Shown here: positions 1 through 64,000 of the stretch, piece by piece
Numbering within the stretch: position 1 is the first letter of the stretch
Layout: each line of letters opens with the position of its first letter
Assembly (NCBI GenBank): GCA_032358255.1
Contig: JAULBX010027274.1
Coordinates: 62,001-126,000 of the forward strand
Source of the DNA: Heterotrichella gracilis
Lineage: Eukaryota; Sar; Xanthophyceae; Tribonematales; Xanthonemataceae
DNA: 64,000 nucleotides
Direction of reading: 5' to 3'
Position numbers and translations under genes: made by a program
Notes under the pieces: model-generated
Told to the model about the DNA's origin: nothing
Databases searched by the model: none
What the model saw: the letters and a program-made list of their open reading frames with translations, nothing else

Positions 1-1511
1 GTGCAAGTGGGGTTGGGCAGCTGGTGAGGTGTGGGGCGCTGCATGGAGTTGGTTGTAGCGGTAGCATGTAGGACAGGGCGGTATCTGGATGTATATCATG
101 GGGGCTTAGAGTAGTTATTTAGTAGTTTATTCTATCTAGTCCCCTGCTTATGTATTACAATCCTGGTTGTGATCATTATGTAGTATGCTTGTACAGATTT
201 CGTAGACCAGTGCGACCAGATTTGGCTAACCAGATGCTTGCACCTTGGCTCACGTGGTTCGGCTGGTAGTGGTGCAGAACTGGTAGCAATCTCAAGACAC
301 GGGAGGTAGTGGTGGCTAATGGCGCATTGGTCAGTTTGCCGCCTTTTGAGGTATGACCAGGGGACAGAGTGTAAGCTGTCGTGTGTAGTAATATTCCCAG
401 TTTTGCAGAAAAGAAAAGAAAAATAGACGCAGAGTGAGAATATGCAGGTAGAGCTAGAAGACTAGCAGCAGGTGGCTGCTATTTTGGAAGATGTTCGACT
501 AGGGTCAGACCATAGACTCTACGGCAGCGGTACAATGTTGTTTTCATCACCGTTTCTTTTGGTCCTGGACAAGACGTGGTGGGATTGATGTACATCTTGT
601 TATGAAGCGTGGGGGGGCTTGGCGCGATGCCAGCCTTGATATTTCCCTTATTTGGTAGTGGATAAGGCCTTGGTTTCTTTGATTCGGAAACTGCTTGTAT
701 GTGAGATGAGAAATTGGTGTGCATGCGCAGGACCCAGGCTAAGCCTGGCAGGCTTGGCCCAATTGCATTGATGGTGTGCAAAATCTGGGCCGCCCAATTT
801 GAAATTTGGATTGGATGGGCAAAACCCCGTCCAAAACCCTAGAGAAGCCTTCGGAAGATTTCAATAATCCCTTCTACTCCCCCTGCTGTGATGGGAACGC
901 ACGTCTCGCGTGACATTTTGGGCCTGTCCAACTGAAACGTATGCATGCTTTGCATAACCCATCGAAACTGGCGTGCAACGACCTCTATCTGTGTCTCCGT
1001 ACAGTGTGCGAGTCTCCCTTGTGTCTGCATGTTAACTGCACGCGTTGTGGGTCGCCCTGGCCCAGAGTCTGGGAACTGTCCAACTGCAGTGCGATCTTTC
1101 GGGATCTAGATCGCGTTGCAAACAAGCCCACGTGTTCCTTGGTATAGTAAGAGCCTCTTTTGTCATTTGGCGTCTGTATTCTTGTTGTCTTAGACCGCTG
1201 CGGGAGCTGGACCCAGTTGGAATTGGGGCACATCCCACATTGTTGTCACGACACACAGTTGACGGGAACTGCCCACTTGGCACCCCTCAGCTTGCTGCAA
1301 ATCAGGCTTTACAAGCAATATCCGCACGTTGGGACACAGTGCTATCGCCACCTTCAGCGTCCACTCCCCTTGAGGATACTGGGAGCTCCAGTCCAATGTG
1401 AAAGCACTTCACCTGCTCCAATAAAAACAGCCTGTGCAACAACAGCAACGACACACACGGGCGTGGTGGGGAAGCCATAGTCCCATGGTATAGCTCCACC
1501 AGCGAAGCACC
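1..1511. other. 5' flank, no gene assigned
   Basis: I find no exon with recognisable protein similarity in this stretch. Open frames between about 840 and 1770 on both strands overlap one another and have no clear family. The last few hundred bases are presumably the promoter and 5' UTR of the PAM gene. An A/G-rich run at 411-433 (AGAAAAGAAAAG) followed by GACGCAGAG resembles the purine-rich end of the dispersed short repeat seen elsewhere in the window. Confidence 0.5.
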
Positions 1512-4500
1512 ATGGTCCGATTGCGCTGCCCAGCATCGATGGCAACCGGGTGGGTTGTGCTGGTGGCAGCCTGGGTGGCCCTCTCCTCCCCCATGGAAAT
1601 CCATGGCAGCACCGAAGGCATTGACGAGCTGGTGACAGTCAACGCCACGATGCCTCCGTTCGTGGTCCCAGGGGCGGAGCCCTACTTGTGCACAGCTGTC
1701 AGCCTGCCAGACGAAACCTTCAAGCTGGTTGGGATCAAGGCCCTTGCAGAGCAGGCGACAGTCCATCACATCCTCCTGTTTGGTAGGTGATTTATGGCCT
1801 TAAGGGTCTCGGTGGAGGTAGGGCAGTGGCTGGGTATTGGTGGGAAGAGGCATTACCTTGACTGCTGCCAGGTATCCAGTAATATGGTTCCATGGCATTG
1901 GGTTACTGCAAGCCATGTGGGGAACCGTCAAGCTGGTGGGTATCAAGGCGATGGTGGAGCAGCCACACTGCATCACTTCCTCTTATTTGGTAAGTGCACA
2001 AGGGTCTCGTTGCTGTCCATAAATCTCTTGGCAGCGCTTGGCATGCCTTGCATGTGCGTGATGGCTCCGCCTGCAACTGCTAGATGCTAATTCGAGGACA
2101 GCTCACAGATCACCATGTGGACTAATGCACAAACATCAATCCTCTCGCCTCCACCCCGGCCCCACATTCCCCGCCACCCCACGCCCCTCGCTCACCCTTT
2201 CCCCCCTTGCAAACCCTCCCCAGGGTGCCTCGAGCCTGCCTCCACCGAGCCCGCCTGGAACTGCATGGAAAAGATGCCGTGCGGGGGCAGCTCCCAGATC
2301 ATCATGTACGGGTGGGGCAAGAATGCTGCACCCATGGCGCTGCCAAAGGGGGTTGGCTTTTCGCTGGGCAAGGGGACAAACATCAAGGTCATCGTGGCGC
2401 AGGTGGGGAGGTTCCGCCATGCCGCATCCATGACATCAAAACCCTGACCGAAACCCTACCGGATGTGCATTATCTCATGTAGCTCTAAGTGTCGAATCCT
2501 CACCAACACTCTAACACGTCCCTACCAAAACCCTAAACCAAAACCCTACTGCAGGTGCATTACCTCACAACGCGGCCCGAGGGTGACGCGTCGGGGGTGC
2601 AGCTTACCCTAACAAGGAGGGCGATACCCTACTCTGCAGGTATGGTGCATGTGTGTCCTGTGGGGCACAAGGCTGGCACAAGGGGTTCATGTGCAGATCT
2701 GGAACACACAAGGGTGCACATCACACGCCACTCCCACCCAGCGCATCCACCATGCATGCACCCGAATGACACCTCATGCATCTTATGATGTCAGCAAATA
2801 TCCTAGAACAGCAATTCTACTTCTAGAAAATTTTCAAAGGTTAACAATAATATAAAAATTTTCAACTCCCCTCCCCTCTGCAGGCATGCTGACTTTCGCC
2901 ACCTGGTTCGACATCCCCCCCCAGCAGCCAAGGGTGCTTGTACCCAACAAGTGCTGCTACAGCGGCTTTGAGCCCCTGCATGCCTTTGCCTTCAGGGTGC
3001 ACACGCACTCGCTGGGCAGGTAAGGGTTAAAAGTAGGGTCTAGGATAGGGTCCGTGGGGCTCAGTAGGGTTTGAGCCTCTTCATGCCCAAAACCCTATGT
3101 AAATCCTATCCAACACTGATTCCCCCTCCTCTGCAGCACCGTGTACATGGACCACCTTGACCGCTCAGACCCCGACACCGCACTGCGTGTAGCTGAAAAC
3201 GACCCGCAGCTGCCACAGGGGTTCTACCCACTCAAGCCAACCACCTTCTACCCAGGTAGGGACAGCCTTTGCCTCCCCGAGCCAACCCACGCTCTGCTTA
3301 TGTAAGGAGTTGGGTGCAGGGTGTAGGGTGTAGGGTTTCCAGCCAATCACAGGGGCAGTCTAGGTCACTGGGCTCCTATTATACTATATTACCGGGCTGC
3401 TACTTTCTTGAGCCAAATGCCAGCCGTTGCGGGGGCTAATCCCGAGGGACAAATATGCACGCATCCCAACCCACTAAAGTTCCCAGTAACCTGCTTGAGG
3501 TGGCCTGTGATTTCAACTCCACCACCCGCCATGAGGTCACCCAAACCGACAAAATGCATCAAATATGCAATACTCTCACATCTGACCCCCTCCTGTGCAG
3601 GAGACCTGCTTGAGGTGACCTGCGAGTTCAACTCCACCACCCGAGACCAGGTCACCCACGCGGGGTCTACCCACTCTGATGAAATGTGCAATATGTACAT
3701 GATGACCTACTCTGAGAGGCCAGTCTTCATGGATTGCATGGGGGAGCAAACCCAGGGGGATTTGACGGGGCCCGGGGGCCTGGGGCAAGGGGCTCAAATG
3801 GTGGAGCTGGAGGGGCAGCTGTGGGCGCCGCCCCCTCCCAGGGGGGAAGGGGGTGTTGGGGAGGGTGGGGAGGTGGCGCTTGGCCAGGTGGCGGGTGTGT
3901 GGCAGGGGGGAGATGGCACCATCTGGCTGTTCCACAGGTGGGTGGGTGTGTGGTTGGGGGGGGGGGGGGAGGGGAGGGGTTTGGTTGGGGGGGGGGTTGG
4001 TTGGCAAAGGGTTGCGCGGTTCAATCATTTTAAATGTGTTTATGGCCACAAAAAATCACATCACCACGCTCTGCACACATAATACAAACCCCTAGCCAAA
4101 CCCTTCTGGAATCCCCACCATCACCTTGCAATCCCCGTGCCCTGCAGGGGTGACCGCATCTGGGATATGTCCACGTTCCCTGGGGATGGCGAAAAAGCTG
4201 CCCTCACTGAGCCGATCCAGGAGGATGTGGTGGTGCAGCTGGATGAAAACACTGGCCAGGTAGGGGATTAGGATTTTGAGTGAGGGTTTGCGATGGCAAA
4301 GAAGGGTTTTGCAATGGCGAACTAAGGGTTCGCGGTCATGCAGCTGGGTGATTGTACCTGACAAGTGGGGATTGGGTGTATGGAGCACCTGTGGGACGAG
4401 CAAGATGAGCCAGAATTCCACTCGCATGAAACCACCAGGACCCTCAGAAAAACCTAAACCAGCTGAAAAAAAGACCCTAAAATAGCTCCCTGCCGACCCT

Positions 4501-6740
4501 GAAACCCTAAACCCCAGCTCCCCGCCCGCAGGTGCTGCGCCGCTGGGGCTCCGGCCTGTTCTACATGCCCCACGGGCTTTATGTAGACCCTAGGGAAGGG
4601 TCTGTGTGGGTCACCGACGTGGCGCTCCAGCAGGCCATCAAGTTCTCCCCCGATGGCACCGAGCTCATGCGCATTGGGGTCAAGCTGGAGCCGGGGCACG
4701 ACGAGGAGCACCTGTGCAAACCCACACAGGTAGGAGTTTTGCTTAGGGTTTGCAAAATAGTGTTTGGGTTAGGGTTGTAGTTGGTGTGCTTCGTGGACAT
4801 CTGGGTGAAGCTGGAGCCGGGGCAGGATGAGGAACAACCATCAAGGGTTTTGTAGAGTCCTGATAGGGTCTGGATTGGGGCTTGCAATTGGGCGCGCAAG
4901 GGTGCGTTACCTGTGCACTGGGGTAAAATTTGGAGCCTGGGCACGATGCGGTGCAAACCCTGAAAATCCCAAATGTGCAGGTGTTGGTGGTGTTTGATGA
5001 CCAAATGGCTGTTATTACTCTAGGGTGCTGCTGGGTCTCGTCAGCCCATTTGGCCCTGGAGCTACCTACCCTCTCTCCTCCCTTGCACCATACCAAACGA
5101 CACCCAGTCTCCGTGCAATATCATGCGTGACTTTTCAAACACCCCAAAGAATTTAACCACAACCTCCCAAATGGGCAGGTGTCGGTGGGGGCCGAGGGCC
5201 AGATCTTCATCTCCGACGGCTACTGCAACTCGCGTGTCCTCCAATACAACTCCACGGGGGGGCACGTCATGACCTATCAATCCAAACCCGACATGACAGT
5301 ACCCCACCACGTGGTTTCCGACGACTGCACCCGCCACATCTTTGTGGCTGATCGGGAGAAGATGCGCGTGCTGGCTTTCCAGATGGAGGATGGGGAGCAG
5401 GATGCCTCCTGGGATTTGCAAAAATATGGGAATCCCTATGGGCTGGCCATGGGTCCCTATGGGTCGATCGTGGTGCTGTGCTGGGACCGCTCGGCGGATG
5501 TGACCACGCTTCTCGTGCTGGACAAGTCTGCAGGTGAAAACCCCAAACCCTGATACTCTATACCCTAATACCCTACATCTTAACACGCATTCCTGGACCC
5601 GACACCCATCCATGCTACTGCTGGGCAAAGTTGCAAATAAGACCCTAGACCATATCCCTATACCCTAAAGGGGACATTGTGGTGCTGTGCTGGGATCCAC
5701 CGGGGGCGTGACCACCCTGCTGGTGCTGGACAAGTCAGCAAGTGAAAAATGTAAACCCTAAACCCTATCTGTAAACCCTAAGCCCATCTCTCAAACCTAC
5801 ACCCATCGTGCTGTGCTGACTCATCTGTAGGGTAAAATCTCCCAATGCCATGTCCACTCCCTCCCCGTTGCACACCCCCCACCCCCCACCCACCCTCCAC
5901 CCCCCCACCCGTAGGCAACGGCATCCTCCACTCCTGGCCCCTGGCGGGGGTGAAGAGCCCCCACCACATGGCTGTGGGTGCAGCCCCCACCCTGCTGACT
6001 GGCACGGGGGAGCGCCACCTGGCGGCCTACGTGGCAGAGACGGCCGAGGCAGGGAGCAGGCTCAGGAAGTTTGTGCTGCTGGGGGCAGGTGAGAGTTGTG
6101 GGGGGTAGGGGGGGATGGCGGGGGAAGGGAGGATTCGTGCTGCAGGTGGCAAGTGACCACAGTGGGAGTGGTGGTGGGTAAGACAATGGCAGGGACGTAG
6201 GGAAGTGGCGGGGCTTTAGGTAAGGTCTTGTCTGAGGATCCATGTTGTGGTCAGAAAACCCTTGCCAGGGTTTCAGATGGTGTAGGGAAATCGAAACCCT
6301 GGCCTCCTCACCATTCCTGTGTACGTGCAGGCGAAACCCTGCCCGACCTCAACACCACCACACCCCCCACACCCGCCGCGGAGGAGCAGGCACAGGTGGA
6401 ACCCCCCACCCTCCAGCCGCAGCCACCCGCCGCCGACCCCACCCCACCACCCCCCACCGACACCACCACCACCACCGCCGCGGCGGTAACCGAACTAGAC
6501 CCCACCGATGAGTCGGGGGTCGAACCCGAGACCTCTGCCGAGAAGTCGGGGGTCAAAGCCGCCACCTCCCCCGCTACCCCACATGCATCCCATGGGCATG
6601 GCAAGGCCAACACCAGCCCAGTGTGGGCACTGATGGGGGTGATGGTGGTGGTGGCGGGGGCGGCTGCGGGTCTGGGGTACCTGCTGTGGTCTAGCCCGGG
6701 GACCAAATACGCGGCGCTGGATATGGAGAGCAGGGATTGA
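1512..6740 (+). CDS. PAM: Bifunctional peptidylglycine alpha-amidating monooxygenase (PHM-PAL)
   Basis: PAM converts C-terminal glycine-extended peptides to peptide amides in the secretory pathway; PHM hydroxylates the glycine with copper and PAL cleaves the product with zinc. Eleven exons: 1512-1782, 2224-2402, 2555-2639, 2884-3019, 3137-3255, 3601-3937, 4148-4259, 4532-4729, 5179-5533, 5915-6088, 6331-6740; 791 aa. A signal peptide opens the protein. PHM copper ligands are visible: TVHHILLFGC and VHY (CuA), HTHSLGR and DEMCN (CuB site His-x-His and Met). PAL has GDRIWD, FYMPHGL, SDGYCNSR, VPHHV and SPHHMAVG, which supply the zinc histidines and catalytic tyrosine. A Pro/Thr-rich linker leads to one transmembrane helix (ALMGVMVVVAGAAAGLGYLLW) and a short tail, so this is the integral-membrane bifunctional form as in animals and Chlamydomonas. 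All junction phases agree. Gene symbol is from the family. Confidence 0.93.
1923..1996 (+). repeat. Decayed copy of PAM exon 1 3' end plus donor
   Basis: Bases 1923-1996 repeat 1717-1790 (the end of exon 1 and its GT donor) with scattered changes; the copy still ends TTTG|GTAAGT. It lies inside intron 1, about 206 bases downstream of the original. Confidence 0.85.
3485..3573 (+). repeat. Decayed copy of PAM exon 6 5' end
   Basis: The segment CCTGCTTGAGGTGGCCTG through ATATGCAAT matches the start of exon 6 (3601-3694). Acceptor-type copy, upstream of the real exon by about 118 bases, inside intron 5. Confidence 0.85.
4799..4965 (+). repeat. Two decayed copies of PAM exon 8 3' end
   Basis: 4799-4845 repeats the exon 8 segment at 4678-4712 (AAGCTGGAGCCGGGGCA...GAGGA). 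A second, weaker copy is at 4929-4965 (GGAGCCTGGGCACGA...GTGCAAACCC). Both lie in intron 8, downstream of the real donor. Confidence 0.75.
5668..5760 (+). repeat. Decayed copy of PAM exon 9 3' end
   Basis: Repeats 5461-5550: GTGGTGCTGTGCTGGGA, then GTGACCAC...CTGGTGCTGGACAAGTC, with the donor changed from GCAGGTGA to GCAAGTGA. It lies inside intron 9, about 210 bases downstream. Confidence 0.85.
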
Positions 6741-7550: not shown

Positions 7551-10216
7551 TTAGCAGCGCTCACATTCCATGAGCGGCCGGGCACTCCGGGAGCATCTGA
7601 TGCCACATTTTGAATAAACTGTAACAAACTCGGCGAAAGCTGGGAAGGCGCCACTGTGACTGTCAGGCTGCTGAAACCCCATACAATCCTCAACTTGGGC
7701 CGCTATATGGTGGTAGATCACCATACCCCCTTGCTCATGTGGCCCATTGCCTCGTCCACCATCAGCTGCATGCGCCCCTGACCCACGCTGCTGGAAAGAA
7801 CCTGCGGCAGGGTAAGGAATCGATTGCGAATGCAGAATGCAGAAGGCGGTCGCAGGGAAATTCCCCAATAGGATGAAGCAAATACCTATTATAGCATAGC
7901 AGCCACTTGACAGATCAGAATGCTGCACCCAGCCTCAAACCCTCAACCAATAACACCCCCACCCACCTGCAGCACCAGCCCTCCAGCGCCAATTCGAAAC
8001 CCTACACCCAAACCCTACTACCCAAACCCTCAACCCTAAAACACCCCACGCACCTGCAGCACCACGCAGCCCCCCAGCGCCAGCCCTAGCGCAACCCTTA
8101 GGGCGTCCACAAAGTGGCGCATGTCCCTGGCGCGGTCGATGCGCGAGCCCCCCAGGGTGCGCGCGTTAAAGTAGTCGAGGTAGGCGGTGTAGAAGCAGCG
8201 CCACACTGACATCAGCCCTAGCACTCCAGCTGCGGTCACAAACGGCTCGCCTGGGGAACGTGGGAGGGGTATTGGGGTCGTTGGTAGGGTTTTGCGTAGG
8301 GTACATCGAGAATATCATGCCTTACACAAGGGCTGGCCTGGAGAAAGCGGGAGGGTTATTTAGGTCGTTGGTAGGGTTTTGCATGGAGTTTGTTGAGGGT
8401 ATCACGCATTACAACAGCGCTGCCTGACAGGGGAGAGGGTTTTGGATGGACCACCACCCTAGCAGCGGTCCCCTAGGGTTCGCCTGTGCACGGGGGGTTG
8501 TAGGTAGGGCTGTGCCGGGGGCTGATTGACAACGCAGCTGGGTCCAAAACGCGGACCGGTACCTTTCTCTAGGGTATCATTTTTTGTTTAAACACAGTTC
8601 TTTTAACGTCTGATTCTGAGCAATCCCCCACCTGGCGCCGCGGCGGCCAGCGGCAGCACCAAAGCGAACCCCTCCGCCCCCACCAGCGCCTTGCCTTCAG
8701 CAGCAGTCAGTACCACCGATTCAAAACCACAAACCCTAAACGCCCTCAAGGCGATTCATGCCCACGCCGGTACCCTTACTAAGGTAGCATTTCTTGTTTC
8801 AACACATTTTTCTATCTAGTGCAATCCCCCACCTGGACCTGCGGCGGCCAGCGGCAGCACTGAAGCAAAGCCCTCCGCCCCCACCAGGGACTTGCCCTCT
8901 GCAGCTGTCAGCAACACCAGCTGGGCTGCAGCTACTGGTTGGGAGCACAGCCAGGCGAAACAGGTCCTGCCCAGGGCGGTGGAGAGGTCTGCGGTAGTGG
9001 GGAAAAACCTTGGTTAAGGTTTGCCAGGTTGGGATCACAGCCAGGGCAAAAAACCCTTGGTTAGGGTTTGCCGGGTTGGGAGCACAGCCAGGGAAAAAAA
9101 ACCTTGGTTAGGGTTTGCCGGGTTGGGATCCCAGCCAGGCGAAACAGGTCCTGCCCAGGGGGGTGGACAGGTCTGCGGGAGTGGGGAAAAACCCTAGGTA
9201 AGGGTTTGACTGCATCTGTAAACCCCCAGGGTTTGGCGAGGTGAGAGCAAGCCAGGCAAAGCTGGTCCTTGGCCAAGATTTGGTTGCAAAACACCTGCCG
9301 GAGATTTTGCTTTGTAGTTGCTCACCACTGACAAGACAGCAACCCATATGCCCAGCAGAGTGTAAGAAAAGGATTTCCATTTTCCAGGGATATATTTTGC
9401 ACACGCTCGATTGAATCCCCCATCCAACTTCCCAGAAATGCAAGGGCAAAAGGACCCACATCCCAGTCAAATTTGCACCCACCTGCTGTAGAATTTGTCT
9501 TGTAGTTTCCCACCACTGATGACACAGCCACCCAGGTGCCCAGCAGCGTGAGGGCAAAGGACCCAAATTCCAGGAATCTCAGGGGGTTGAAATGCAGGGG
9601 GGCCGTCCACCCGGGGAAGGAGGGGAGGAAGATGATGGCGGTGATCTGAACACAAGGGGGGTGGATTAAATATGGCAATTGAAATGCAAAACAAAACAGC
9701 TTGAATGCGAATTGCTGGAAGGCTTCTGTCGTAGGTATATGTGTCCCTAGAAACCCTAGGATAGGTACCACTGTTCATTGAAACCCTGCTATCAATAAAC
9801 ACTACATAGGGTAATTACCTCCGGCGCACCTGCTTGTACATGCACAAGCACAGCATGCGCATACAACCTTGAACCCTAAACCCAAAACCCTAACGTAGGG
9901 TTCCCCCACTCCCCAAGCGCACCTGCTTGTACATGCAGAAGCACAGCATGCACAGGCAGTCTCCCACTAGCAGCTCCCTGTTTTCCACCTTGAGGGCACA
10001 GGGGGGAAGAGGGGTGTGGCGGCGGCGCAGGGGAGGGCGGCGGTTGGAGAGTGGTGGGCGGCAGCGCGTGTAGGGGGAGGTAAAATGCAACCTGTGGTTG
10101 CAGGGAAGTGAGCTGGCGTTCTCCAAGGGGGTAATGATGTAACGAAGGTTTACTGACCTCCTGTAGGTTTCACCAGACAGCTGGCGGGGGGCAGTGTAGC
10201 TGTCAGCTGGTGCCAT
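7551..10216 (-). CDS. Multi-pass membrane protein, DUF3054-like, probably plastid
   Basis: Five-exon model on the minus strand: 9923-10216, 9483-9645, 8833-8988, 8054-8250, 7551-7790; 349 aa, phases consistent. The first ~75 residues are basic and Ser/Pro/Arg-rich, like a transit peptide. Then come hydrophobic segments: ELLVGDCLCMLCFCMYKQ, LPSFPGWTAPLHFNPLRF, FGSFALTLLGTWVAVSSVV, RTCFAWLCSQPVAAAQLVLL, and FVTAAGVLGLMSVWRCFY followed by a basic loop and ALRVALGLALGGCVVL. The order and the motifs (LLVGD, PLxFNP, GTWV, AWL...PVAAAQLVL) recall the plant DUF3054 family; this is from memory and not certain. Function is unknown. The terminal exon is the weakest part: another frame after the same acceptor stops early at 7718-7720. 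Start 10216 is the first in-frame ATG. Confidence 0.6.
8621..8710 (-). repeat. Decayed copy of DUF3054-like exon 3 3' end
   Basis: Repeats 8821-8920, including the intron start (CAATCCCCCACCTGG on the plus strand) and about 80 bases of exon encoding the GKxLVGAEGFAxVLPLAAA segment. Donor-type copy in intron 3, about 200 bases downstream in gene direction. Confidence 0.88.
9126..9205 (-). repeat. Decayed copy of DUF3054-like exon 3 5' end
   Basis: Repeats 8941-9016, including acceptor TTCCCCACTCCCGCAG and exon start encoding DLSTPLGRTCFAWL. It sits in intron 2, upstream of the real exon. A shorter related string (GTTGGGA/CACAGCCAGG...AAAACC) recurs between 9020 and 9110. Confidence 0.88.
9289..9380 (-). 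repeat. Decayed copy of DUF3054-like exon 2 3' end
   Basis: Encodes TLLGIWVAVLSVVSNYKAK against TLLGTWVAVSSVVGNYKTN in the real exon at 9483-9560, followed by GTG at the donor. A further partial copy (GPFALAFLGSW) is at 9425-9460. A small copy of the exon 1 end (CTGCTTGTACATGC) is at 9826-9860. Confidence 0.85.
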
Positions 10217-10369
10217 GTGAAGATGATACGTGCACTTTGACTATTGATCGCAAATAACACAAGCTGTTGATCATGCAGGGCAGTACCTGAAAGATGCGTG
10301 TGCAGCAGCCACGTGGATGTGCTGCCACGTGGATGTGCCCTTGCTATACCCTCCCCTACCTGCCGACCA

Positions 10370-10650
10370 CAACACCCTAGCAGGGTTTGTGCAATACTTT
10401 ACCCCCCATCTGGGCAAGCCCATGCTCTCGGAGTGCAGGGTACACTTCCCAAGGGCTTCTGCAAAAGCATGGGCTTGCCCAGTAGGGTATGCACAATACC
10501 CTAGGAGGGTTTGGACATCAGGGTCCCACCCTTGGCAAGCACAATACCCTAAGAGGGTATACACCTGCAGCAGCGCCTGTGCACCCTGGTTGAGGGCAGG
10601 CGATGCCCTACCTGGGTAGGCCCAATGCCCTAGCAGGGTTTGCACATCCC
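10370..10650. repeat. Degenerate tandem repeats with CCCTA-AGGG dyads
   Basis: AATACCCTAGNAGGGTTTGNACA-like strings recur four times (about 10370, 10486, 10540, 10625). Within them a perfect 17-bp inverted pair, CTGGGCAAGCCCATGCT at 10410-10426 and its complement at 10466-10482, flanks a 39-base loop. Confidence 0.75.
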
Positions 10651-11889: not shown

Positions 11890-12012
11890 CGCAGTATAGC
11901 AGTATAGCCAGGTTAGCAGTCAATCTTACATGTGCTGCGCCGCGCAGCTCTTTCCTGGCACCACCTGCTGATCCTACGCGGCTTCAGGTCCTGCTGGATA
12001 AGGTCAGCCAGG
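11890..12012. repeat. Dispersed repeat family B, copy 1
   Basis: Shares with 63172-63296 the order: CAGTATAGCC / CAGCAGTC..TCTTGCACATG / GCGCCG..CAGCTCT..CCTGG / CAGGTCCTGCTNGANAAGGTCAGCC. A third partial match is at 13811-13860 (CAGTACAGCCAGGTCAGC). No coding capacity or recognisable ends. Confidence 0.65.
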
Positions 12013-12602
12013 CTAGGGCTCACCCTTTTGCCTCGTCTACCCTACCGATAATCATACACACTTTTGGGAACCCGAGCATCTGGTGAACGTCCTGAGTGTC
12101 CCAAACAGTTTGCTTGATGTCCCTAGTTTGCCACTTATGCTTTGTTGCCCACGTTTACGAAGGGATAAGAGATAAGAGGTAGGGGTGTGCGCAAACCTTG
12201 AAACCCCACACAGCACCCTTGAACGATTATTTTGCAAAAAACACTAGATTAAATGTATCAAGTTGAGACTGCCTCATAGCCCAGCTGTCAGCCCACATAA
12301 AAGGGTTAGGAGTAAGCACATGGTGACCACCACCCTGGGGGCTATGGTATATATATGCGATGGCAGGTATGAAGAATATGTAAAAGAATTGCAGAACAGA
12401 TTGCAGAGTGCCGCCTACCCCTCGTGTTTTCCTTGGATTGGAAATCATGAAGGGGCTGTACCTTCCCCAGCTTGCCACACAATTTCTGCCACCTCAGTTG
12501 CGCCTTGAGGCCAGCCCCGGGCCAGCACTGTGCACACCGATGGGGGTGTGAAAAACCACCGATGCGCAGTCCGCAGCCCAGGGATGAAGGTTTTCAGGTT
12601 TA

Positions 12603-53479: not shown

Positions 53480-56400
53480 CTATATCGCCAGCCCCGGCAC
53501 GTCCTCCCCTGCCCCCTCCCCCCCCTTCACCCGCGCCAGCTGCTGCAACAAGGGACCCAGCTGGCGCCTGAACACAGGCCAGGAGATGGAATAGGACACC
53601 TGTCGGGGCCACCAAATGTCGCACATCTGGGGGTCCACGTGGGGCGGGCACTCCCCCTTTTCCACCACTGCGAGCTTGTTCTCTGGGGATTGCGCGCGCC
53701 ACTCGGGGAAGCCCCATAGTGCCTGTGGGGAGAGGGAGAGGGGGGTTGTGCAGGGGATGATGGGGGTAACACAGGGGGTGTCAGGTGCATGAAGTTTCTA
53801 CCCTTTTTTACTGACATGCAGAATCTCAAGCTCAGATGCAGGGTGGTGGACCTTGAAACTCTGCATGTTGGTCAACAAGGCGTAGCAACTTCATGCAGGC
53901 ATACAAACATGCAGGGCATTTTGCACAAGGATGCCCCCAAGGGTTTTCCGGCGCCCACACAAGGGTTATCTGCGCTCACGTCTGTGTTGTACATCAGGTT
54001 GTACCGCTGGTGGTTGTGCAGGTAGGTCAGCGACGCGTTGAACCCAAACTGGTGACGCAACGCCTGCACCATCCCATGCACCCGGGGTTGCTGGCGGCCT
54101 GGCCAGGGGATCAGCTCCATCCCCACCGATCCCTGAAGAAATGAACGCGAGAGGGGAGGGCAATGTGAGAAGGGGTCAGGGTGGGCCGCTGAACAGAGCC
54201 AAGGCAGGGTTTGTACGGAGGGCAATTCTCTAGACCCCAGTCCACAGGGTTGGGTGCAGGATGTGAGCATGTTTGCTAGGTCTAGGATTGAAAAGCATAT
54301 AGATCAGGGTGTCCTTGTGCGTACCTGTGGCATGAAGATGGTGTGCGCCATGGTGGCCCCATGGGTCCACACCAGCAGGCTGCTGGTTAGGGTTTAGGGT
54401 TCAGAACTTCTAGGGTTTAGGGTGTCCCTGTGCGCACCTGTGGCATGAAGATGGTGTGCGCCATGGTGGCCCCATGGGTCCATACCAGCAGGCTGCTGTT
54501 CCAAAACACAGCTGCTTGCCGCCTGCAAGGGGAGGGGTTGCGCAGTGAGCACAGGAGCAATGGGGATTGGGCGAGGGGCTAGAGCGGCCCTCTCCTGCTT
54601 CCATGCGCGCTTCCCCACCCGTAGGAAGACAACAAAAGACAACAATAACTTATATAGGTAAATAGTATAAAATAATAAAACATATTCTGATTAAATAGTG
54701 ATCATATAAGAACACAACAAAAGGGAGAAAAACATGATGAAAAGCATTTTACCTCAGGCTCCACGTGTCGTCCATGTACACTATCCGCACCGCCAGCTGG
54801 CGGCCCAGGGCACGCGCCAGCTCATCCCTCGTGCGCCCCGCCAGCTGAGCCACAGTCAGCAGTGCGCGCCCCTCATCGTGGTGCCGGTTGACAAAGGTGG
54901 CCACCGTGGGGGCGAAGGGGGCCTGAAAGGGGGGGGGGGGGTCTGACCCAGGGATTTGGCGATTTTTGGGGGCGGGGGGACCGTGCACGCATGGCACTGG
55001 GGGTTGTATTCTGCAGGTTTATCTTTAGGGTTTTGGGTTTAGAGACAGAGCGCTACAGCCAGGAGTGCGCGGCCCTCACTAAGGTGCCGGTTGACAATGG
55101 TGGGTGAGTAGGGAGCTTGGTTAAGAATAGTGAAAGGGTAAAATAAGGTAAATTCATATATATATTTGGGGCCTGCTGGAATGTATGCTGGCGCAATGTG
55201 CAAACCCCTGCATACCTTTTTGGTGATGAAGTCCTCCCCTATGCAGTCCGCCAGTACCCGCCGCCATCGCTGCGTCTCTGCCACAGGGGGCTCACGATAC
55301 TCGCGCTCCTTGAACCTGTAAGGAGGGAATGTGCGTCATGCACTGCGCCAGATTCTTAACCATATGCTTCAGGGCATACACCTTGGTGCATGGGCTGCGC
55401 TGGCGCAGGCAAGGCTGCCACTGGCTGCCACCACCAACCATGTGTTGACAACCATTTACCATGCACAGGCCTGCCGCAGCCGAACAGCAACACCACCAGC
55501 AAAACCAACGATGATCAACCCACCACAAGATGCACTTCCTTTCGACTTTTTAGCAATTAGCAATCCAAAACCCATCTGACAAGCGGCCGCTAGTAAGCAC
55601 CACCACAATCCAAACAATTTCAAAAATCACGCGGCCACATGCATCCCCGTACACCCTCCACCCCGCCACCGACCTGTATCTAAACCCTAACCCTTTACCG
55701 GCCTCACCTGCGCTCCCAGTTATGGAACACCCGCACCTCCTGGCCTGTACCTACGAGGGCATGGTGCAGCACTACTGCCTGCATGCGGGTGGGTTGTCAG
55801 TGGTTGCAACTCTATAGAAATTGAACTGTAGTTGTATATTGGGTAATTTCATGCAAGTCTTTATGATTATGATTTGAATTCTTGTCACGTGTGGTCCATG
55901 TCGCGCCAGTTAAGCATGTACCACATTTTTAAATCTGTTTTTTAAAAAGATGTGCCAACCATGCCCTTATGACGTTGCCTTGCAATCTTGCCAAACGAAT
56001 AATTGTCACCATGTTGTTATCACTTTCAGCAGCGCACCTTGTTTTCCAGGGAGGCATCCCCGATGTGCACAAACGGGTGGGGCGTCAGGCACGCGAGGGC
56101 GTCCCGCACCGCAGGCAGCAGCCCATACTGCGGCACAGTCGGCGGCAGCTGCTGGACGAAAAATGCGCGCAATTCCGAGCCGGGGTCGTAATTGCACAGC
56201 CCCAAATGCCGGCACAGCAGCAGGTGGAATGTGGGGAGTGCCTCGGAGAACATGTGGTAGAAGTTGGTGTAGTGCTGCTGGTGGAAGAGGGCTGCCAGGG
56301 GCACCTCGTGCACCTCTGCCACCTGGTTGGTGTCTTGCCAGTCAAAGGGCAGCTCTGATTGGTCCACCACCTCCAGCTGTGTGCGTAGGGGGGGTACAAT

Positions 56401-57926
56401 CACAATTTGACAGCGCGGGGTGGTATAATTACATTTACAAGATCTCACAAGATTTATTTGACAGTCACATTCAGGGAGCTAACCCAGGCTCACAAGACTG
56501 GTACATTAGAAGACGAAAGAGAGTACAGGAATAAAACAACGGCTACTGATAGATCAGATTGGTCCACCACTTTTCAAGTGTGCAGCAAGAGGGGGGGTTA
56601 TGAATGTCGGGGAGGATAAAATCGTGGGAGAGGTGCTAATGCCATTGGCCAGTCTCAATATTATCTGTGTTCTATCCTACGACAGGATGATGGCGATTAA
56701 TGCAGAATGATGTCGATTAAATGCAGTTGCCATGTGCATGTTAATGTGGGGCTGTACGTTGCGCCCTTCTGCTGCAGATGTGCACGTGCAAGTGGAAGTC
56801 TACCCTACTATGCTGCATGTACATGTGCATATGTATGTGCCCGCGGGCCATGAATCTGCGCCCAATTTGCTGCAAAGGCACATGCGCCCTGGCGGCTTTA
56901 CTGTGCATTCCTACCTGCAGCAAATTGTCCCCTGCAAATTTCTTCATCCAGGAGATCTCGATGTTGGGGGGCGCCTGCTTGCCCGGGCCCTTAATGTAGT
57001 ACAGAGCACCATCCCAAATCACCACATTTGTGAGGTTGCACACCCGCTGCTCAGGTAAGCTCCCCGCCCTCACACACTGCACAGGCATGGAGGTGGGGTT
57101 TAGCATTTATGTCTCCTAAACCCTATATGAGGTGTTGAGGGTTTAGGAGTTGCGCACCCGCCCTCAGGCAAGCTGCCCCCGCCCTCACACACTGCACAGG
57201 CATGGGTGCGGGCTTTAGGGTGTAAGTGTTGGGATTAGGGTTTGATGGTGTTTGGGGTTGCATACACACAGGCTTCTCGGGCATTTTGTGGGCAAAGTTA
57301 GATGGGAATAGCGTTTATTGTATGGTTTAGGGTTTTCATCTGGGGTAGGCAGTCCAGTGAGGTAGAGCTGAGGTGCTTGCTCATAGATCCACTCAGTGAA
57401 GCAGTCACTCTCAACCCCTAGGGTTTCATGGATTGGGGTTCCATTCCGGCACCCTCCATGCATGAAGGCATCCAGCACGTGCATAGTGGCATGTGTAGGG
57501 ATCCATGCACAACTGCGCGCCAGCCAGCCAAGCCTCACCGAATAGCTGGAGGTGAGGCCCTTGTACCCCTCCCGCTGTGGCTTGCTTCCCCCTTGCCCAT
57601 CCCCTTGTGCTGGGGCCTGTAACAGAGCGAGCAAGACATTTGACAGCACACTAAGATAAAACTATAGTGCTGACCATATGGATTGGGGAGGTTGTCAATG
57701 GGAGTGCAGTGTGTGGGACTGGCTGGGTATGCAGTGCCGCGTCAATGGGGTGACAAGGGAGGACAGGAGCCTCATCAGAACTAGTGAGGTGGGTGTAGGG
57801 GATATTGCAATATCAATGGTAGAACCAACAGGCACTGGGTACCTGTATTGGTGTGTGCGCTAAGAGAAGCACGGCTGCCAGCCATGCTGCAGCTAGATGC
57901 TTGCCCCTGGTCCGCATGCCTGGCAT
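53480..57926 (-). CDS. GT61 (DUF563) family glycosyltransferase, type II membrane protein
   Basis: Ten exons on the minus strand: 57843-57926, 57539-57616, 56915-57076, 56038-56376, 55708-55778, 55216-55315, 54753-54922, 54438-54522, 53980-54132, 53480-53722; 494 aa, phases exact. The first exon encodes a basic tail and one hydrophobic anchor (LAAAWLAAVLLLAHTPIQ), giving Golgi type II topology. GT61 features: NFYHMFSEALPTFHLLLCRH, a NxxxE-like DELARALGRQLAVRIVYMDD segment, LLVWTHGATMAHTIFMPQGS and VGMELIPW, the last two matching the family's GVHGAGLTN..FLPPGA..VEL signature. GT61 enzymes include beta-1,2-xylosyl- and arabinosyltransferases of N-glycans and wall polymers; donor and acceptor cannot be told from sequence. 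C-terminal ~80 residues are unlike the land-plant members I know. Confidence 0.9.
54312..54387 (-). repeat. Copy of GT61 exon 8 3' end
   Basis: GTGTCC.TGTGCG.ACCTGTGG, CATGAAGATGGTGTGCGCCA, TGGTGGCCCCATGGGTCCA.ACCAGCAGGCTGCTG repeats 54421-54498 with only a few changes. Period about 110 bases; donor intact. Confidence 0.95.
55055..55105 (-). repeat. Copy of GT61 exon 7 5' part
   Basis: CACAGTCAG-like CAGCCAGGAGTGCGCGGCCCTCA, AGGTGCCGGTTGACAA.GGT repeats 54850-54900. It lies in intron 6. Confidence 0.85.
56555..56590 (-). repeat. Copy of GT61 exon 4 5' end
   Basis: GATTGGTCCACCAC.T, AGTGTGC repeats 56357-56384 at the exon 4 acceptor. In intron 3. Confidence 0.7.
57145..57205 (-). repeat. Copy of GT61 exon 3 5' end
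   Basis: GTTGCGCACCCGCC.TCAGG, AAGCT.CCCCGCCCTCACAC, ACTGCACAGGCATG repeats 57034-57090, acceptor included. In intron 2. Confidence 0.9.
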
Positions 57927-59073: not shown

Positions 59074-62000
59074 ATGCTTCCCCTGCACCTCCCCGCCTCC
59101 ACCTCCACCCGCCCCCTCCCCCCCGGCCCCTTGGCCACCCTCCGACCAGCCTCACGCCGCCATGCCCCCACCCACCTCACCCACAGCACCCCCCGGGACA
59201 CCCCCAGCAGCAGCAGTAATACCAGCCCCCAGGAACCGGAGGACCAGCTGAACACCCTAGGAGACCCGGAGGCGTCCCTGCGCCGCTATGGGCCCTGGTT
59301 CGGCAAGAATTTCGTCATGCGGCTGGATAACGTCATGCCTGGGGTTCCCATGGTGAGCGCAATGAACCCAGAATTTGATACAGTTTTCCTAAAACCCTAA
59401 ACCTGAAACCCTGGACAATAATCGTAAACCCTAACAGTACACCCCGAGGCATCCCTGCGCCGCTATTGGTCATGCGTCAAATGGATGCTGTCATGCCTGG
59501 GGTTCCCATGGCGAGCGCTTCCACTTCCAACGCACCCTAGCAACTCCATTGCCCCCGGCTTGCGAACAATCACCTTGCCCAACACAGATTCTGTAAAAAC
59601 GTCCTGATCGGATCAGATGGGTCACCATGCCTTGCCAGCCATGACAGGCACATTCCACATGCATGCAATGCCTCCACATCCTCCACTGCACCTCTTAAAA
59701 CCCCTCCCACAACTCGTTGACCACCCGCTGCCAGCACCTCCCAGTGGATGAAAGCTTCCACCTCGCTGCATCCCCTTGCCATGCATAGCTTGAACTCCAC
59801 CATGCACCCACACCCTCATATCCTCGTCATGCTATAAGAATGATGGCATTGTGTTCTACCCTCCTCTTCCCAACCACCACCAGGTGCGTGTGCGGCGCGC
59901 GCCCGACCAATTTGGCGAGCTGCCGGACAGCCTTTCTACTTGCATCTATATGCCTACTCCACCCAACCCCCGGATCCCCAACATTACCCTGGGCATCCCG
60001 GCCCCTGCCAGGGTCACGCATCTACACACTCCACCACAGCTTCACCCTCCCCATCTCAATTAAACCCTAATCTCAAACCCTCCTCCCATGCCAGGTGCGT
60101 GTACGGCGCGCGTCGGACCGCCAGCGAGACCAGCTTGCTGAGCTGGCGGTGGTGAATGAGCGGTTGGCGGGGAACGAATCCACTGACATACGTGCCAAGG
60201 TGGGTGGGCTGGGTACATGCATTTATGGTTCAGGCATTTAGGGGCTTAGTTGAGCAGCTTTATTTCAGGGGAGGGTTGGTTGGGTACTGTAGTTGAGACA
60301 GCCAGGGGAGGAATTCATGGCCATATGGTCACTGGGTGCATGGGTTCCAATAATACATAGCTTGCTGAGCTGGCGGTGGTGGAATAGGGACAGATGGAGA
60401 ACGAGTCGACTGAATACGTGCAACGGTGGGTTGGCTGGGTACCTGCATCCACACTTCAGGGCTTGAAAATGGGCATTTTATACTGGTTGGTTAAAATGGC
60501 ATCATTCATGCCATCCTTCATACTACAGTTGATTGGGTGGCAGGGAATTGCGGTAGCAGCCTGACTGGTTAGCCCCATGGTTAGGGTTTAGGGTGCCTGG
60601 ATTCACCAGCACGGCCAGATTGAGCACTCACATGCCTGCCATTGTGTATTGCCTTGAGTAGGGCCCAAGCACATGCACACTTATGGGTTCTGGCGGCCAA
60701 TGGCATGGCGGGTGTACTACCCGTCAGGAATGGTCTTCTGGCTGATGGAGTTGGCCCTTTTCTACAATGAAACCCTGCCACTCCCTGCTGCCATTAGCAT
60801 GCTCTGTGGGCGGGGGATGGCAGTGACTGGCAGGGCTTCTTGGTTTAGGGTTTAGGGTTTAGGGTTTAGGGTGTTTAGGGTTTAGGATGGCAGTGACTGG
60901 CAGGGCTTCCTGGTTGAAAAGACCCACATTGCGTCAGCCATAGGGGGATTTCTGGCAGTGGCGGCACTTGACAGGCCATTGGCTTGCAGATCCTGTGTGG
61001 TGGTTCCCTACCTTTAGGTGGTTGCATGACATTTCATGGGGGGGGAGCGTGGTCATTGTGCTGAGCTGGTGGTGGTCAAGGAGCGGGTAGTGAGTTAGTG
61101 GACATGCGTGCCAAGGGGTGTTGGGTATCTGGGTGTGGGTCATAGGACTCAGGGTTCAGAATTCAGGTCTTTAGTGTATGGTCCCTGCATTCCAGCAGTC
61201 CGGCCAGAGTGAGCACTTGCATGCCTGGCCACCCTGCATTGCTTTAACCAATGTACACATGGTCAGGCTGTTGACGGCCTGGCGGGTGTAGCACCTGCCA
61301 GAAAGGATCTTCTGGATTGTGAAGTCGTGTCTTCCAAGCGGAGGACATCCTGCAGTCCCTGCCATGAGCATGCTCTGTGGGCAGGGAATGGCAGTGACTG
61401 TGAGGCCTTCTTTGCTTAGAAGGGCCAACTTCATCAGCCATAAGAACCATTTCTGGGGTATTGTACACCCGCGATGTCAATAGCATGCAGACCCTGAGTG
61501 CATGGGCCAAGCTATTGTCCGCAGCCCAACCTTCCCACCCTCCCCTCCTGCAACCGTGCAAACAGCCATGGCCAAGGCTGGTGGTGAAGCAAGTGGTTTA
61601 CAAGGGGTTTGTAGATTTGTTGGTGTCAAAGAACAGAATCGTATTGTACCCCACCCCCTTATTCACCTGTGCCCAAGTAAAATACCTAAGCGCAAGAGGA
61701 TGCAGTAGGAGAAATGTTCAAATAAAAGTATAGGATATTGTTAATAATATCGTTTCCCCCCAGGTGGAGTACCTGCAGCGCAAGCGGCGGCAGTGTGAGG
61801 AATGATCCAATTAATTTGTGTGATATTTTTTAATCACGTTTGTATGTTTGCAGGTGGAGTACTTGAAGCGCAAGCGGCGGCAGTGGGAGATGATCTACCA
61901 GTACGTGACCAGCCAGGACGCAGCTGCCACGCTGGCTCTAATAGAGGAGGCAAACAAGCAGGTGCGCACAGAAGCCCTAGGGTATATTACTGAGGGTTTA

Positions 62001-63719
62001 GGGTTGAGTGACCAACCAGGATGCAGCTGCCACGCTGGCACTCATAGAGGAGGCAAACATGCAGGTGCGCTGACAATCCCTAGGGTACATTATGCAGGGT
62101 TTAGGGGCTCAGATTCCCTAGGGGACAACAATGTGGTGCAGGGTTGAGGAGGCAAATAAACTGATGCGCTCACAGCCCCAGGGCAGGGTCTGCGTGTGCG
62201 ATGAATTCACGCAGGCGTTTGGGCTTGACATAAGTAATAAACCCTGATTTGTGTCCCCACAGGTTAAGCGGGCCCTGAGCGAGGTGTTCCGCAAGGAAAA
62301 CAGTGTGGGTGCCCTAAAGCGCCTCTAAACCCTAGTACCCTTGTGCCCCCCGGTTGAACTGGCATTGCTTGCGTTAACTGCCCCTAAAATACCCACTTTT
62401 CAAAATGCCAAATTGAAACATTGATTACACACCTTTGTCGCCACAGGTTGAGCTGGCGCTGAGTGAGGAATCCCGCGAGAAGACCAGCGTGGGTGCCCTC
62501 AAGCGCCGCCTGACCGAGCTGCGGGACGACGTGAGCGGTGCGCACCAGCAGCTGCATGTCACCCAGCAGCGGGTGGACTGGAACCTGAGGAGGATAGAGG
62601 AGCTGAGGGCGCAGGCGGTGCGTGTGTAATATAGTGGGAACACCTTGGCAAAACCCTAAACCCTTGGCAAACCCTTGGCTGTCAACGTGTGGTGGAATCT
62701 AGTGGTAGCTGTGGCAGACCCTTGGCAAGTGCTTGGGAATCGATGTTGCAACCCAGTCGGGGAATGGTGCAAGGTACACAGTGGGAGCCCTAGTGGAACC
62801 CTTCTAAACGCCTTAGTAGAACCCCAGTGGAAGCCCGTCCATTTGATGGTTTACTGACTGTGCTTCCACAACCCTTCCCAGGAGCGCTTGGAGCGCGTGC
62901 GCACACAAACCGCTACCACCTCTGCCGTCGCCGCCGCCACCACCACCACTGCCACCTCCTCTGTTGAGGCGCAGCTGGCAGCCATGGACCTGGGGGATGC
63001 CGTGGAAACCCTGGACGGGTTTGGGGCAAATCCTAGCACCAGCGGGCGCCAGCGCCGGGGGCTGCAGAGCAGCTTGAATTTCGAGGACAAGCTGAAGCAG
63101 TTTTGGTACCCAGTTGCCTTTGCAGCGGTACGTACCCTTTGGGCGAGGGCTAGGGTTTTGTTAGTTGCATCCCAACAATACAGCCGAATGAGCAGTCTGT
63201 CTTGCACATGCGGCGCCAAGCAGTTCTGCCCTGGTGCTATTTATATCACCTTTTGATCCTGAGCTACCTGAGGTCCTGCTAGACAAGGTCAGCCCATGTG
63301 GCCCTTGTTTACCTACCCCCTTACCTCCGGTGCTCATCACTACGCCAGCACCAATCCTCCCCCTCACATCCTCCTAAACCCTAACCCACCCATAAAAACC
63401 CTCGACCTCAGTACCGCCCAATACCGAATTTTGTTTCCCCCGCCATTACAGAAGGTGGGCACCGACACCATGGTCCCCTTTGACCTCTTCAACGAGCCAT
63501 GGGTGCTGTTTCGAGATGAGGCGGGGGAGGTGGGGTGCGTGCGGGACGAGTGCGCGCATCGAGCCTGCCCGCTGTCCCTCGGTAGGGTTGTGGAGGGCAC
63601 CATCGAGTGCCCCTACCATGGCTGGCGGTTCAACCCCCACGGCGAGTGCACCAGGATGCCCTCCACCGCTTTCTGCAAGGGGGTGGCTGTGTCTGCGCTG
63701 CCATGCTTTGAACAAGATG
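59074..63719 (+). CDS. CAO: Chlorophyllide a oxygenase, 5' part (runs off the window)
   Basis: CAO makes chlorophyll b by two oxygenations of the chlorophyllide a 7-methyl group in the plastid. Exons seen: 59074-59352, 60095-60199, 61854-61961, 62447-62617, 62882-63127, 63452-63719; the last ends in phase 1 at a GTGGGT donor and the mononuclear-iron domain lies beyond the window. The first ~60 residues ([20 protein letters not shown]) form a transit peptide. An A-domain follows ([18 protein letters not shown].., [22 protein letters not shown]), which controls protein stability by chlorophyll b in plants, then a Ser/Thr/Ala linker. The Rieske domain has [32 protein letters not shown] and the 2Fe-2S ligands CAHRACPL...CPYHGW. 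Start is the first in-frame ATG of an open frame that extends upstream. Confidence 0.95.
59445..59520 (+). repeat. Copy of CAO exon 1 3' end
   Basis: GAGGC.TCCCTGCGCCGCTAT, TGGATG.TGTCATGCCTGGGG, TTCCCATGG.GAGCGC repeats 59269-59360 with a small deletion. In intron 1. Confidence 0.9.
59880..59935 (+). repeat. Copy of CAO exon 2 5' end
   Basis: CCAGGTGCGTGTGCGGCGCG, CG.CCGACC repeats 60090-60120 including the acceptor. In intron 1. Confidence 0.88.
60358..61135 (+). repeat. Two copies of CAO exon 2 3' end
   Basis: 60360-60440 (CTTGCTGAGCTGGCGGTGGT, ACGAGTC.ACTGA.TACGTGC) and 61056-61125 (GCTGAGCTGGTGGTGGTCAA, GACATGCGTGCCAAGG) repeat 60132-60215. The flanking intron is repeated too: TACTGT..TTG, TTCACCAGCACGGCCAGA.T GAGCAC and GGTGTA.TACC.G.CAG recur at 60590-60740 and 61190-61300, so two ~600-700 bp units are present. 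Confidence 0.85.
60843..60890 (+). repeat. TTTAGGG heptamer array in CAO intron 2
   Basis: Six TTTAGGG units in tandem with one interruption. This is the plant-type telomere heptamer at an interstitial site; short strings of it (TTTAGGGTTTAGGGTT or the complement) are common in introns across the window. Confidence 0.93.
61755..61800 (+). repeat. Copy of CAO exon 3 5' end
   Basis: CAGGTGGAGTACCTGCAGCG, CAAGCGGCGGCAGTG repeats 61851-61885, acceptor included. In intron 2, about 89 bases upstream. Confidence 0.94.
62005..62172 (+). repeat. Two copies of CAO exon 3 3' end
   Basis: GTGACCA.CCAGGA.GCAGCTG, CCACGCTGGC.CT.ATAGAGG, AGGCAAACA.GCAGGTGCGC at 62010-62070 is almost intact; 62143-62172 (GAGGAGGCAAATAAACTGAT) is a fragment. 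The original is 61906-61967. Confidence 0.93.
62256..62330 (+). repeat. Copy of CAO exon 4 5' end
   Basis: CCACAGGTTAAGCGGGCCCT, GAGCGAGGTGTTCCGC.AG, GTGGGTGCCCTAAAGCGCCT repeats 62441-62508, acceptor included. In intron 3, about 185 bases upstream. Confidence 0.93.
63172..63296. repeat. Dispersed repeat family B, copy 2
   Basis: Matches 11890-12012 over about 120 bases with moderate divergence; see that entry. In CAO intron 5. Confidence 0.65.
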
Positions 63720-64000
63720 GTGGGTGATGGTGGGGTGGGTGGGGGTGGGAATGGCTTGGCCTGTGTATTGAGGATGGGTGGTGGGGGTGGTGCCTGCCAA
63801 AAACATGCATAGATGGTGGCAATATATGGTATGTCGCTTAATCCACTTTATTGTACTGCAACAGCAGATGGCGTGACCGCATCATATGAGTGCAGCCCAT
63901 ATACGACGACATACTCATCCTCTTGGTTTACATTTACATTTACAATTACATAGGAATTTCCAAGGCAGAAATGGCAGTAATGTGGCAGTTTAGTGGCAGT
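63720..64000. other. CAO intron, cut by window end
   Basis: Follows the GTGGGT donor of the first Rieske exon. No exon seen in the remaining 281 bases. Confidence 0.6.

Follow-up and report, generated by a model that had tools for sequence, protein, structure and literature searches.

Introns in a 64-kb window of the Heterotrichella gracilis genome carry copies of their own exon edges, probably left by recurrent tandem duplication across splice borders

In a stretch of 64,000 nt from the xanthophycean alga Heterotrichella gracilis (positions 62,001-126,000 of contig JAULBX010027274.1, assembly GCA_032358255.1; hereafter the window), 46 of the 138 splice edges of the predicted genes are copied, splice site included, within their own intron. 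The copies are direct and head-to-tail, and they hold exon and intron parts alike in the aligned pairs. We consider it probable that the introns were built by recurrent tandem duplications that favour the exon/intron border, become fixed when the mRNA is unchanged, and decay afterwards.

The copies were detected by comparing each edge (for a donor, 60 exon and 25 intron bases) with the remainder of the intron to which it belongs and with 100 dinucleotide shuffles. Among the 11 curated genes, an own-intron copy surpassed all the shuffles at 31 of the 69 donors and 25 of the 69 acceptors. Six controls gave one to four cases in 69: donor edge against the upstream intron (1/69), acceptor edge against the downstream intron (4/69), edge against a randomly chosen intron of another gene (donors 1/69, acceptors 2/69), and the reverse complement (donors 2/69, acceptors 1/69); in addition, exon middles against the next intron gave 1/11. 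From these results we conclude that the exon-edge copies reported in an earlier note, made by reading the letters, are real. The note also held that donor copies always lie 3' of the exon and acceptor copies always 5' of it; this stands as a rule, with contrary cases at 5 of 138 edges in the control.

A BLAST self-comparison of the window yielded 85 direct and 6 inverted near repeats at an offset of 700 or less, and near direct matches numbered 7 in 100 kb sampled from contigs C1 and C331 of the assembly versus 110 in 60 kb of the window. Since BLAST overlooks at least one clear event (intron 0 of the gene M1, see below), the counts were taken from the alignment pipeline. Of 57 edges followed up, 51 were aligned across the splice site and six were not. 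In a second pipeline, each intron, extended by as much as 100 bp of exon on either side, was exhaustively compared with itself at a score threshold of 18, a score reached by one of 69 shuffled introns. It produced 90 self-matches: 34 across a donor border, 19 across an acceptor border, 25 within the intron only, 10 within the exon part only, and 2 of other kinds. The border matches fall on 28 donor and 18 acceptor edges; when exon-part-only matches are also counted, 51 of the 138 edges and 41 of the 69 introns carry a copy, so that the approximately 35 copies of the earlier tally were too few. Likewise, most copies include the splice site, as had been stated for every one of them, but the 10 exon-part-only matches fall short of it. 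Introns with a copy have a median length of 424 bp and the 28 without one of 290 bp (P = 4e-4), in agreement with the proposal that duplication lengthens introns.

These counts depend on gene models that were built as follows. A gene finder trained on conserved exons predicted 8 genes in the window (13 across all the sequences used), and hand curation of its output gave 11 genes with 69 introns; the 138 do not include the outer edges of the terminal curated exons, and three of these (25364, 59352 and 57046) carry copies too. Gene-finder exons taken as copies or noise, including zero-length exons, were removed before counting, as were minus-strand exons at 37.4-38.6 kb, the outer exons of genes 6 and 7, small exons in genes 3 and 5 and, in gene 1, everything below 12.4 kb, the first two exons and the small exon 15238-15264. 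Borders were shifted by hand at 22168, 20437, 34677, 39325 and 54438, together with the starts of M1 and M3. In the curated models every intron is GT-AG save for one donor read as GC, each gene has a single open frame, and exons are richer in GC than introns (63.5% versus 52.1%; the window as a whole has 54.8%). Pfam was queried with 10 stretches of the window, mostly open reading frames (ORFs) from a list of 101; five matched, one of them below the cut-off. The genes are:

1539-6740, plus strand: G0, NHL-repeat protein, 11 exons with an open frame and GT-AG sites; Pfam NHL match for ORF 5131-5553; by its sequence, presumably PHM-like
12842-15482, minus strand: G1, presumably GDSL-like, 5 curated exons; 3' end uncertain (stop 12842 or donor 12921)
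18385-22332, minus strand: G2, XAP5 (Pfam XAP5, E 5e-20), 7 exons in one open frame, first donor read as GC
23066-25364, plus strand: G3a, exportin-like (Pfam Xpo1 below its cut-off), 5 exons
25954-29502, plus strand: G3b, which we take to be patatin-like, 7 exons; start uncertain
31257-36809, minus strand: G4, serine hydroxymethyltransferase (SHMT; Pfam SHMT), 11 exons; start uncertain
37430-41701, plus strand: M1, first of three tandem paralogues with hand-set starts and intron positions in common, all assumed to be metallophosphatase-like
43203-47295, plus strand: M2, second paralogue
48741-52045, plus strand: M3, third paralogue
53480-57046, minus strand: G6, assumed to be glycosyltransferase 61-like, 8 curated exons
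59074-64000, plus strand: G7, Rieske protein (Pfam Rieske), which we take to be chlorophyllide a oxygenase-like, truncated by the window end; 5 curated exons from 60095

The copies, with the edge that each one repeats, are:

1923-1996, plus strand: copy of donor edge 1715-1789 (G0 intron 0, offset 208)
5663-5781, plus strand: copy of donor edge 5455-5568 (offset 208; weak match also at offset 103)
13832-14022, minus strand: copy of donor edge 14025-14209 (unit 187, gap 2)
14436-14475, minus strand: copy of acceptor edge 14264-14303
19082-19213, minus strand: copy of donor edge 19214-19332 (unit 119, gap 0; additional copy 19037-19101)
20221-20313, minus strand: copy of donor edge 20415-20507 (offset 194; middle copy at ~91)
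21190-21382, minus strand: array copying donor edge 21415-21636 (offsets ~119, 252 and 370)
27463-27552, plus strand: copy of acceptor edge 27566-27655 (unit 103; within an array from 27272)
27852-27927, plus strand: copy of donor edge 27736-27810 (offset 116, 96% identical)
32846-32888, minus strand: copy of acceptor edge 32731-32774
33699-33802, minus strand: copy of donor edge 33905-34012 (offset 210)
34457-34557, 34299-34405 and 34242-34289, minus strand: three copies of donor edge 34640-34740
35433-35545, minus strand: copy of acceptor edge 35312-35423 (unit 122)
38653-38761, plus strand: copy of donor edge 38532-38635 (M1 intron 0, unit 121; counterpart in M2 and M3)
39059-39128, plus strand: copy of acceptor edge 39185-39253 (M1 intron 0)
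41176-41240, plus strand: copy of donor edge 41085-41149 (M1 intron 5)
43540-43651, plus strand: copy of donor edge 43420-43529 (M2 intron 0, unit 120)
44020-44151, plus strand: copies of donor edge 43920-44018 (M2 intron 1, units ~100 and 93)
46929-47037, plus strand: copy of acceptor edge 47039-47147 (M2 intron 5, unit 110, 94% identical, gap 1; array from 46853)
49161-49269, plus strand: copy of donor edge 49040-49146 (M3 intron 0, unit 121)
49620-49711, plus strand: copy of donor edge 49527-49618 (M3 intron 1, unit 93, gap 1)
51260-51336, plus strand: copy of acceptor edge 51337-51413 (M3 intron 4, unit 77, gap 0)
51727-51765, plus strand: copy of acceptor edge 51838-51876 (M3 intron 5)
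54279-54385, minus strand: copy of donor edge 54391-54498 (unit 113)
60359-60460, plus strand: copy of donor edge 60132-60234 (offset 227)
62008-62106, plus strand: copy of donor edge 61905-62003 (unit 103, gap 4)
62252-62323, plus strand: copy of acceptor edge 62436-62507 (offset 184)

The arrangement of the copies bears out the earlier proposal of repeated short tandem duplications spanning exon/intron borders. Eleven of the 51 aligned pairs have a junction gap of only 0-5 bp and are thus exactly or almost exactly tandem (G2 introns 4 and 5, G1 intron 2, M1 intron 1, M2 introns 1 and 5, M3 introns 1 and 4, G0 intron 9, and one pair each in G6 and G7); in the remaining pairs the unaligned gap can be the decayed intron part of the unit. 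The alignment covers at least 75% of the unit at 18 of the 46 border edges, with unit lengths of 81-122 bp in 15 cases and of 178, 187 and 252 bp in the others. The smallest offset per edge is 81-132 at 32 of 51 edges and 154-252 at 17 (one of them below 172), and the values 366 and 395 occur once each. A degraded middle copy, searched for strictly between the known copies, was found at 8 of the 16 edges with an offset of 172-252 (P<0.05 each; combined P 2e-8), and therefore the basic step is about 100 bp, repeated. Duplication of a whole intron, which would give equal offsets at both edges, was also considered; G4 intron 3 has offsets of 99 and 98, but its copies are far apart (79-104 and 288-380).

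As the gene finder accepted several copies as exons with good splice sites, the copies could be real alternative or repeated exons, a possibility that we find scarcely credible. Between exon and copy, mismatches affect 87/698 (12.5%), 91/692 (13.2%) and 154/689 (22.4%) of the bases at codon positions 1, 2 and 3, respectively, whereas real paralogous exons differ at 30.8%, 18.5% and 40.9%; the codon-position constraint of the latter is absent from the copies. In addition, the SHMT protein spliced without the suspected copies is collinear with a homologue of solved structure (residues 13-454 of the query on 7-454 of the chain, with small internal gaps only). The equal change at positions 1 and 2 makes the copies look like dead sequence that decays neutrally, and the excess at the third position would fit synonymous substitutions that the real exon has undergone. 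The aligned intron part of the copies has 334 mismatches in 1673 bases (20.0%).

It was also proposed earlier that the duplications seed decoy splice sites, and at the level of the sequence they appear to do so: the aligned decoy GT is intact at 51 of 55 bases and the AG at 30 of 36, versus 77.5% and 77.9% in the flanking intron, values that the ends of local alignments bias upward. The splice site tends to lie near the middle of the unit (SD 0.157 versus 0.219 expected, P = 0.019, in a test that includes shared paralogue events and is inflated by them), which hints at centring of the splice site within the duplicated unit. Both observations would be expected if border duplications were retained by selection, for instance because a second donor or acceptor aids splicing or expression; given that decay in the copies is equal at the first two codon positions, and given the two biases just mentioned, we regard this as improbable.

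The paralogues M1, M2 and M3 give some depth in time to these events. The intron 0 duplication is present in all three, with units of 121, 120 and 121 bp and exon parts of 72, 76 and 74 bp; because these sizes are nearly equal, the duplication probably predates the gene duplications. The real edges of this intron are 86-92% alike among the paralogues and the copies 71-82%. In intron 1, the copies of M3 are 88% alike among themselves and those of M2 72-81%, and the closer likeness in M3 means that arrays may renew or homogenise. Other duplications differ among the three genes. The trio of paralogues is a possible system for dating such events.

A more demanding question is whether the border itself is favoured. 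When the mRNA has to remain unchanged, the spare edge left by a donor-spanning duplication must lie downstream and that of an acceptor-spanning one upstream. In a purely neutral explanation, of which the earlier note had raised a form, duplication is uniform, exon-internal events are removed, old border events are kept visible by their conserved exon side, and no border bias is required. This explanation accounts for the direction of the copies, for their decay without constraint and for the near absence of events inside exons, where the BLAST self-comparison lists near repeats only at 28233-28501 and 37680-38520, as in-frame 33/99-bp units and an alanine-rich stretch. It predicts, in contrast, more wholly intronic duplications than are seen. 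For a fair comparison only events whose alignment covers 75% or more of the unit were used. In the 69 introns these are 18 border edges and 6 intronic pairs, all six of which overlap copies of border arrays. Viable start positions, calculated from the observed units with introns shortened by the detected insertions, are about equal (11.8 kb wholly intronic and 13.0 kb border), and in simulations an event remains visible for 0.23 substitutions per site when intronic and 0.29 when at a border, so that about 1.4 border events are expected per intronic one if single events are considered. With the six intronic pairs set aside, the ratio observed has a P of 6e-5 (18:0), or of 3e-4 if only 15 border events are counted (15:0).

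Repeated events were treated by forward simulations that include the purging of mRNA-changing duplications, substitutions, indels and growing introns, under the shared assumptions of a uniform start, unit sizes taken from border events, the predicted exon borders and no large deletions. A 1654-bp intron was excluded from them, and the 68 introns simulated contain 17 border, 6 intronic and 0 independent intronic well-aligned events. An initial neutral simulation, which let introns reach a median of 680-980 bp, was superseded by runs roughly matched in length. Under four settings (24 sets of 68 introns), the well-aligned events averaged 20.5-30.3 at borders and 32.0-46.5 within introns, 21.3-30.5 of the latter being independent; neutral simulations yield 1.3-1.6 intronic events per border event. 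In another four settings (24 sets), in which the most recent period was quiet, the means fell to 13.5-28.3 border and 19.2-38.5 intronic, with 48-69% of border edges well aligned, and even the minimum among them was 17 intronic and 12 independent intronic events, versus 6 and 0 seen. At any coverage, intron-only matches independent of border copies number 4 in the window and at least 25 in each of the 48 simulated sets (at least 26 in those with a quiet period). After correction, duplications are thus not equally frequent away from splice sites, in one window and with predicted exons, and such equality is what the earlier note had said would leave the borders with nothing special. Taking these data together, a border bias is likely in this window and unproven for the whole genome, and the absence of any such bias seems to us rather unlikely.

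Several points weigh against a border bias. If the single-event share of 0.418 for intronic events is applied to all the pairs, 18:6 has a P of 0.07; the 18 border events are not all independent because the three paralogues share events, and with about 15 (15:6) the P is 0.16. Only 18 of the 46 border edges are aligned well enough for the fair comparison. The length-matched simulations keep 70-73% of border edges well aligned and 39% (17/44) are so in the window, hence the real events are older or decay faster than those simulated; simulated intron medians were 345-464 bp versus 364 seen, an imperfect fit that in most settings tilts somewhat toward intronic events. The exon borders are predicted from sequence, and the duplicates were already known when some of them were curated. 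The 22 kb outside the curated genes hold tandem arrays at about six places (8.5-9.2, 9.3-9.6, 10.4, 12.4-12.9, 15.8-16.1 and 42.9-43.2 kb), some near possible exons, so that exon edges are not the only sites of duplication. Among the edges at start and stop codons, 2 of 14, both at stops, beat all of 200 shuffles (G1 with a score of 55 and SHMT with 17; only G1 reaches 18), the G1 copy may belong instead to donor 12921, and 14 edges are too few to separate an exon-wide bias from one at splice borders. Five other algal loci (L002, L008, L009, L010 and L037; 18.2 kb, with uncurated gene models) give a divided answer, with 9 near direct matches and 0 inverted ones. In favour of the border, all six near repeats with an offset of at least 70 span predicted exon edges, and they come from L009 and L037; on the other side, L002 and L008 have no near repeats, with predicted introns mostly of 70-180 bp, and L010 has one short-period match only.

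The sequence of events that we favour is as follows. Recurrent head-to-tail duplication of stretches of about 80-130 bp, as seen in the window, would build up the introns. A duplication running from exon into intron would leave the mRNA unchanged provided that splicing continues to use the first donor or the last acceptor, and could then be fixed, whereas exon-internal duplications would be removed by selection. The spare exon edge would turn into intron and decay free of coding constraint, in keeping with the mismatch pattern, and further rounds would produce the arrays and the offsets of about 200 bp. The initiating events would favour exon DNA or the splice border itself, an excess supported by the simulations, and breaks tied to splicing, exon nucleosomes or the GC-rich exons are candidate causes of an exon-anchored start. 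The strongest form of this idea, in which splice borders or exon DNA are the preferred starting points of the ~100-bp duplications and exon-anchored copying largely sets intron length, is tentative and somewhat doubtful. The lesion could be a staggered break, in which the two strands are nicked some 100 bases from each other and both ends are then filled in; with that spacing, units of the observed size would result. Tandem duplication through the repair of breaks with protruding ends has been shown in mouse embryonic stem cells (PMC5730883), in a report that cites plant and human work; Messer and Arndt 2007, Vaughn and Bennetzen 2014 and Schiml 2016 are among its references.

Telomere-like DNA inserted at breaks, with the flanks duplicated around the insert, would be another origin for the units. 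The seven most enriched 7-mers of the window (at least 25 occurrences) are the seven rotations of TTTAGGG, and such DNA makes up 6.8% of the bases in introns, 1.0% in exons and 4.4% elsewhere. Contigs C70 and C140 both begin with arrays of TTTAGGG, which suggests that this is the telomere repeat; exact 28-mer matches number 209 genome-wide, partly overlapping, and most of the first 100 are internal. Some telomere-like DNA is present at 8 of 18 junctions, and in one gene it seemed to fill the space between copies, but the junctions are not significantly enriched (12.4% versus 9.2% expected, P = 0.19, 18 events) and the gap is 5 bp or less in 11 of the 51 pairs. We therefore consider such insertion very improbable.

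Other repeats lie inside introns, namely a 22-bp tandem array in an M2 intron (46138-46451) and longer direct repeats (offsets 588 and 501) in the 1654-bp G7 intron (60586-61500). Positions 7700-12400 contain several tandem arrays and no convincing gene model. ARAGORN reported a tRNA without a named anticodon in the window, and the Rfam search of the window gave no match. The assembly (68.5 Mb, 903 contigs) has 43 light-harvesting (Chloroa_b-bind) matches, which together with the chlorophyllide a oxygenase-like Rieske ORF of G7 would by themselves point to a green alga. The samples of contigs C1 and C331 (260 kb; L011-L036) have 35% GC and few short tandem repeats; they are probably bacterial, which would make the assembly a mixed one, and they served only as a control.

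Tandem duplication across splice borders may thus be a little-noticed route by which introns grow and gather spare splice sites. Intron growth is partly legible here, given that 41 of the 69 introns keep a recognisable copy of their own exon edge, and this bears on the origin of intron sequence and on intron lengthening. A border bias, if true genome-wide, would imply that the mutation process recognises exons or splice sites. The many decoys offer a natural test of how the spliceosome chooses among near-identical sites, and they are a trap for gene prediction, which here took several of them for exons.

Introner elements are known to add sequence to introns; in contrast, the copies described here match their own exon edge and not other genes, and edge copies were found in a random intron of another gene for only 1 of 69 donors and 2 of 69 acceptors; as far as these edge comparisons go, we reject these elements as the source. 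In the open-licence literature, judged by titles and the beginnings of abstracts, no report of exon-edge copies throughout introns was found. Tandem duplication of coding sequence is one of the proposed routes of intron gain in Drosophila (PMC2891723), and in the Rogers model an intron is gained by duplication of an exon segment containing AGGT (PMC4974935, PMC2891723). Our case resembles that model in the tandem duplication around splice motifs and the preserved mRNA; unlike it, existing introns are enlarged and the copies hold a real splice site and intron sequence. Gain of an intron made of duplicated exon only was therefore rejected, because the copies hold exon and intron parts and the paralogues share intron positions. 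In the potato RdRp gene, one tandem genomic duplication across an intron-exon boundary made a new intron (PMC4974935); as described there, it is a single case with a new intron and an inserted piece of exon, while here 46 of 138 edges are involved, with frame and intron positions unchanged as modelled. With protruding-end break repair (PMC5730883) the copies share direct duplication, sometimes in several rounds; a border preference is not stated in the accessible part of that report, and here the units are mostly of 81-132 bp. The type of event is thus already known; what is new is its extent, a third of the splice edges, and its likely bias toward the border.

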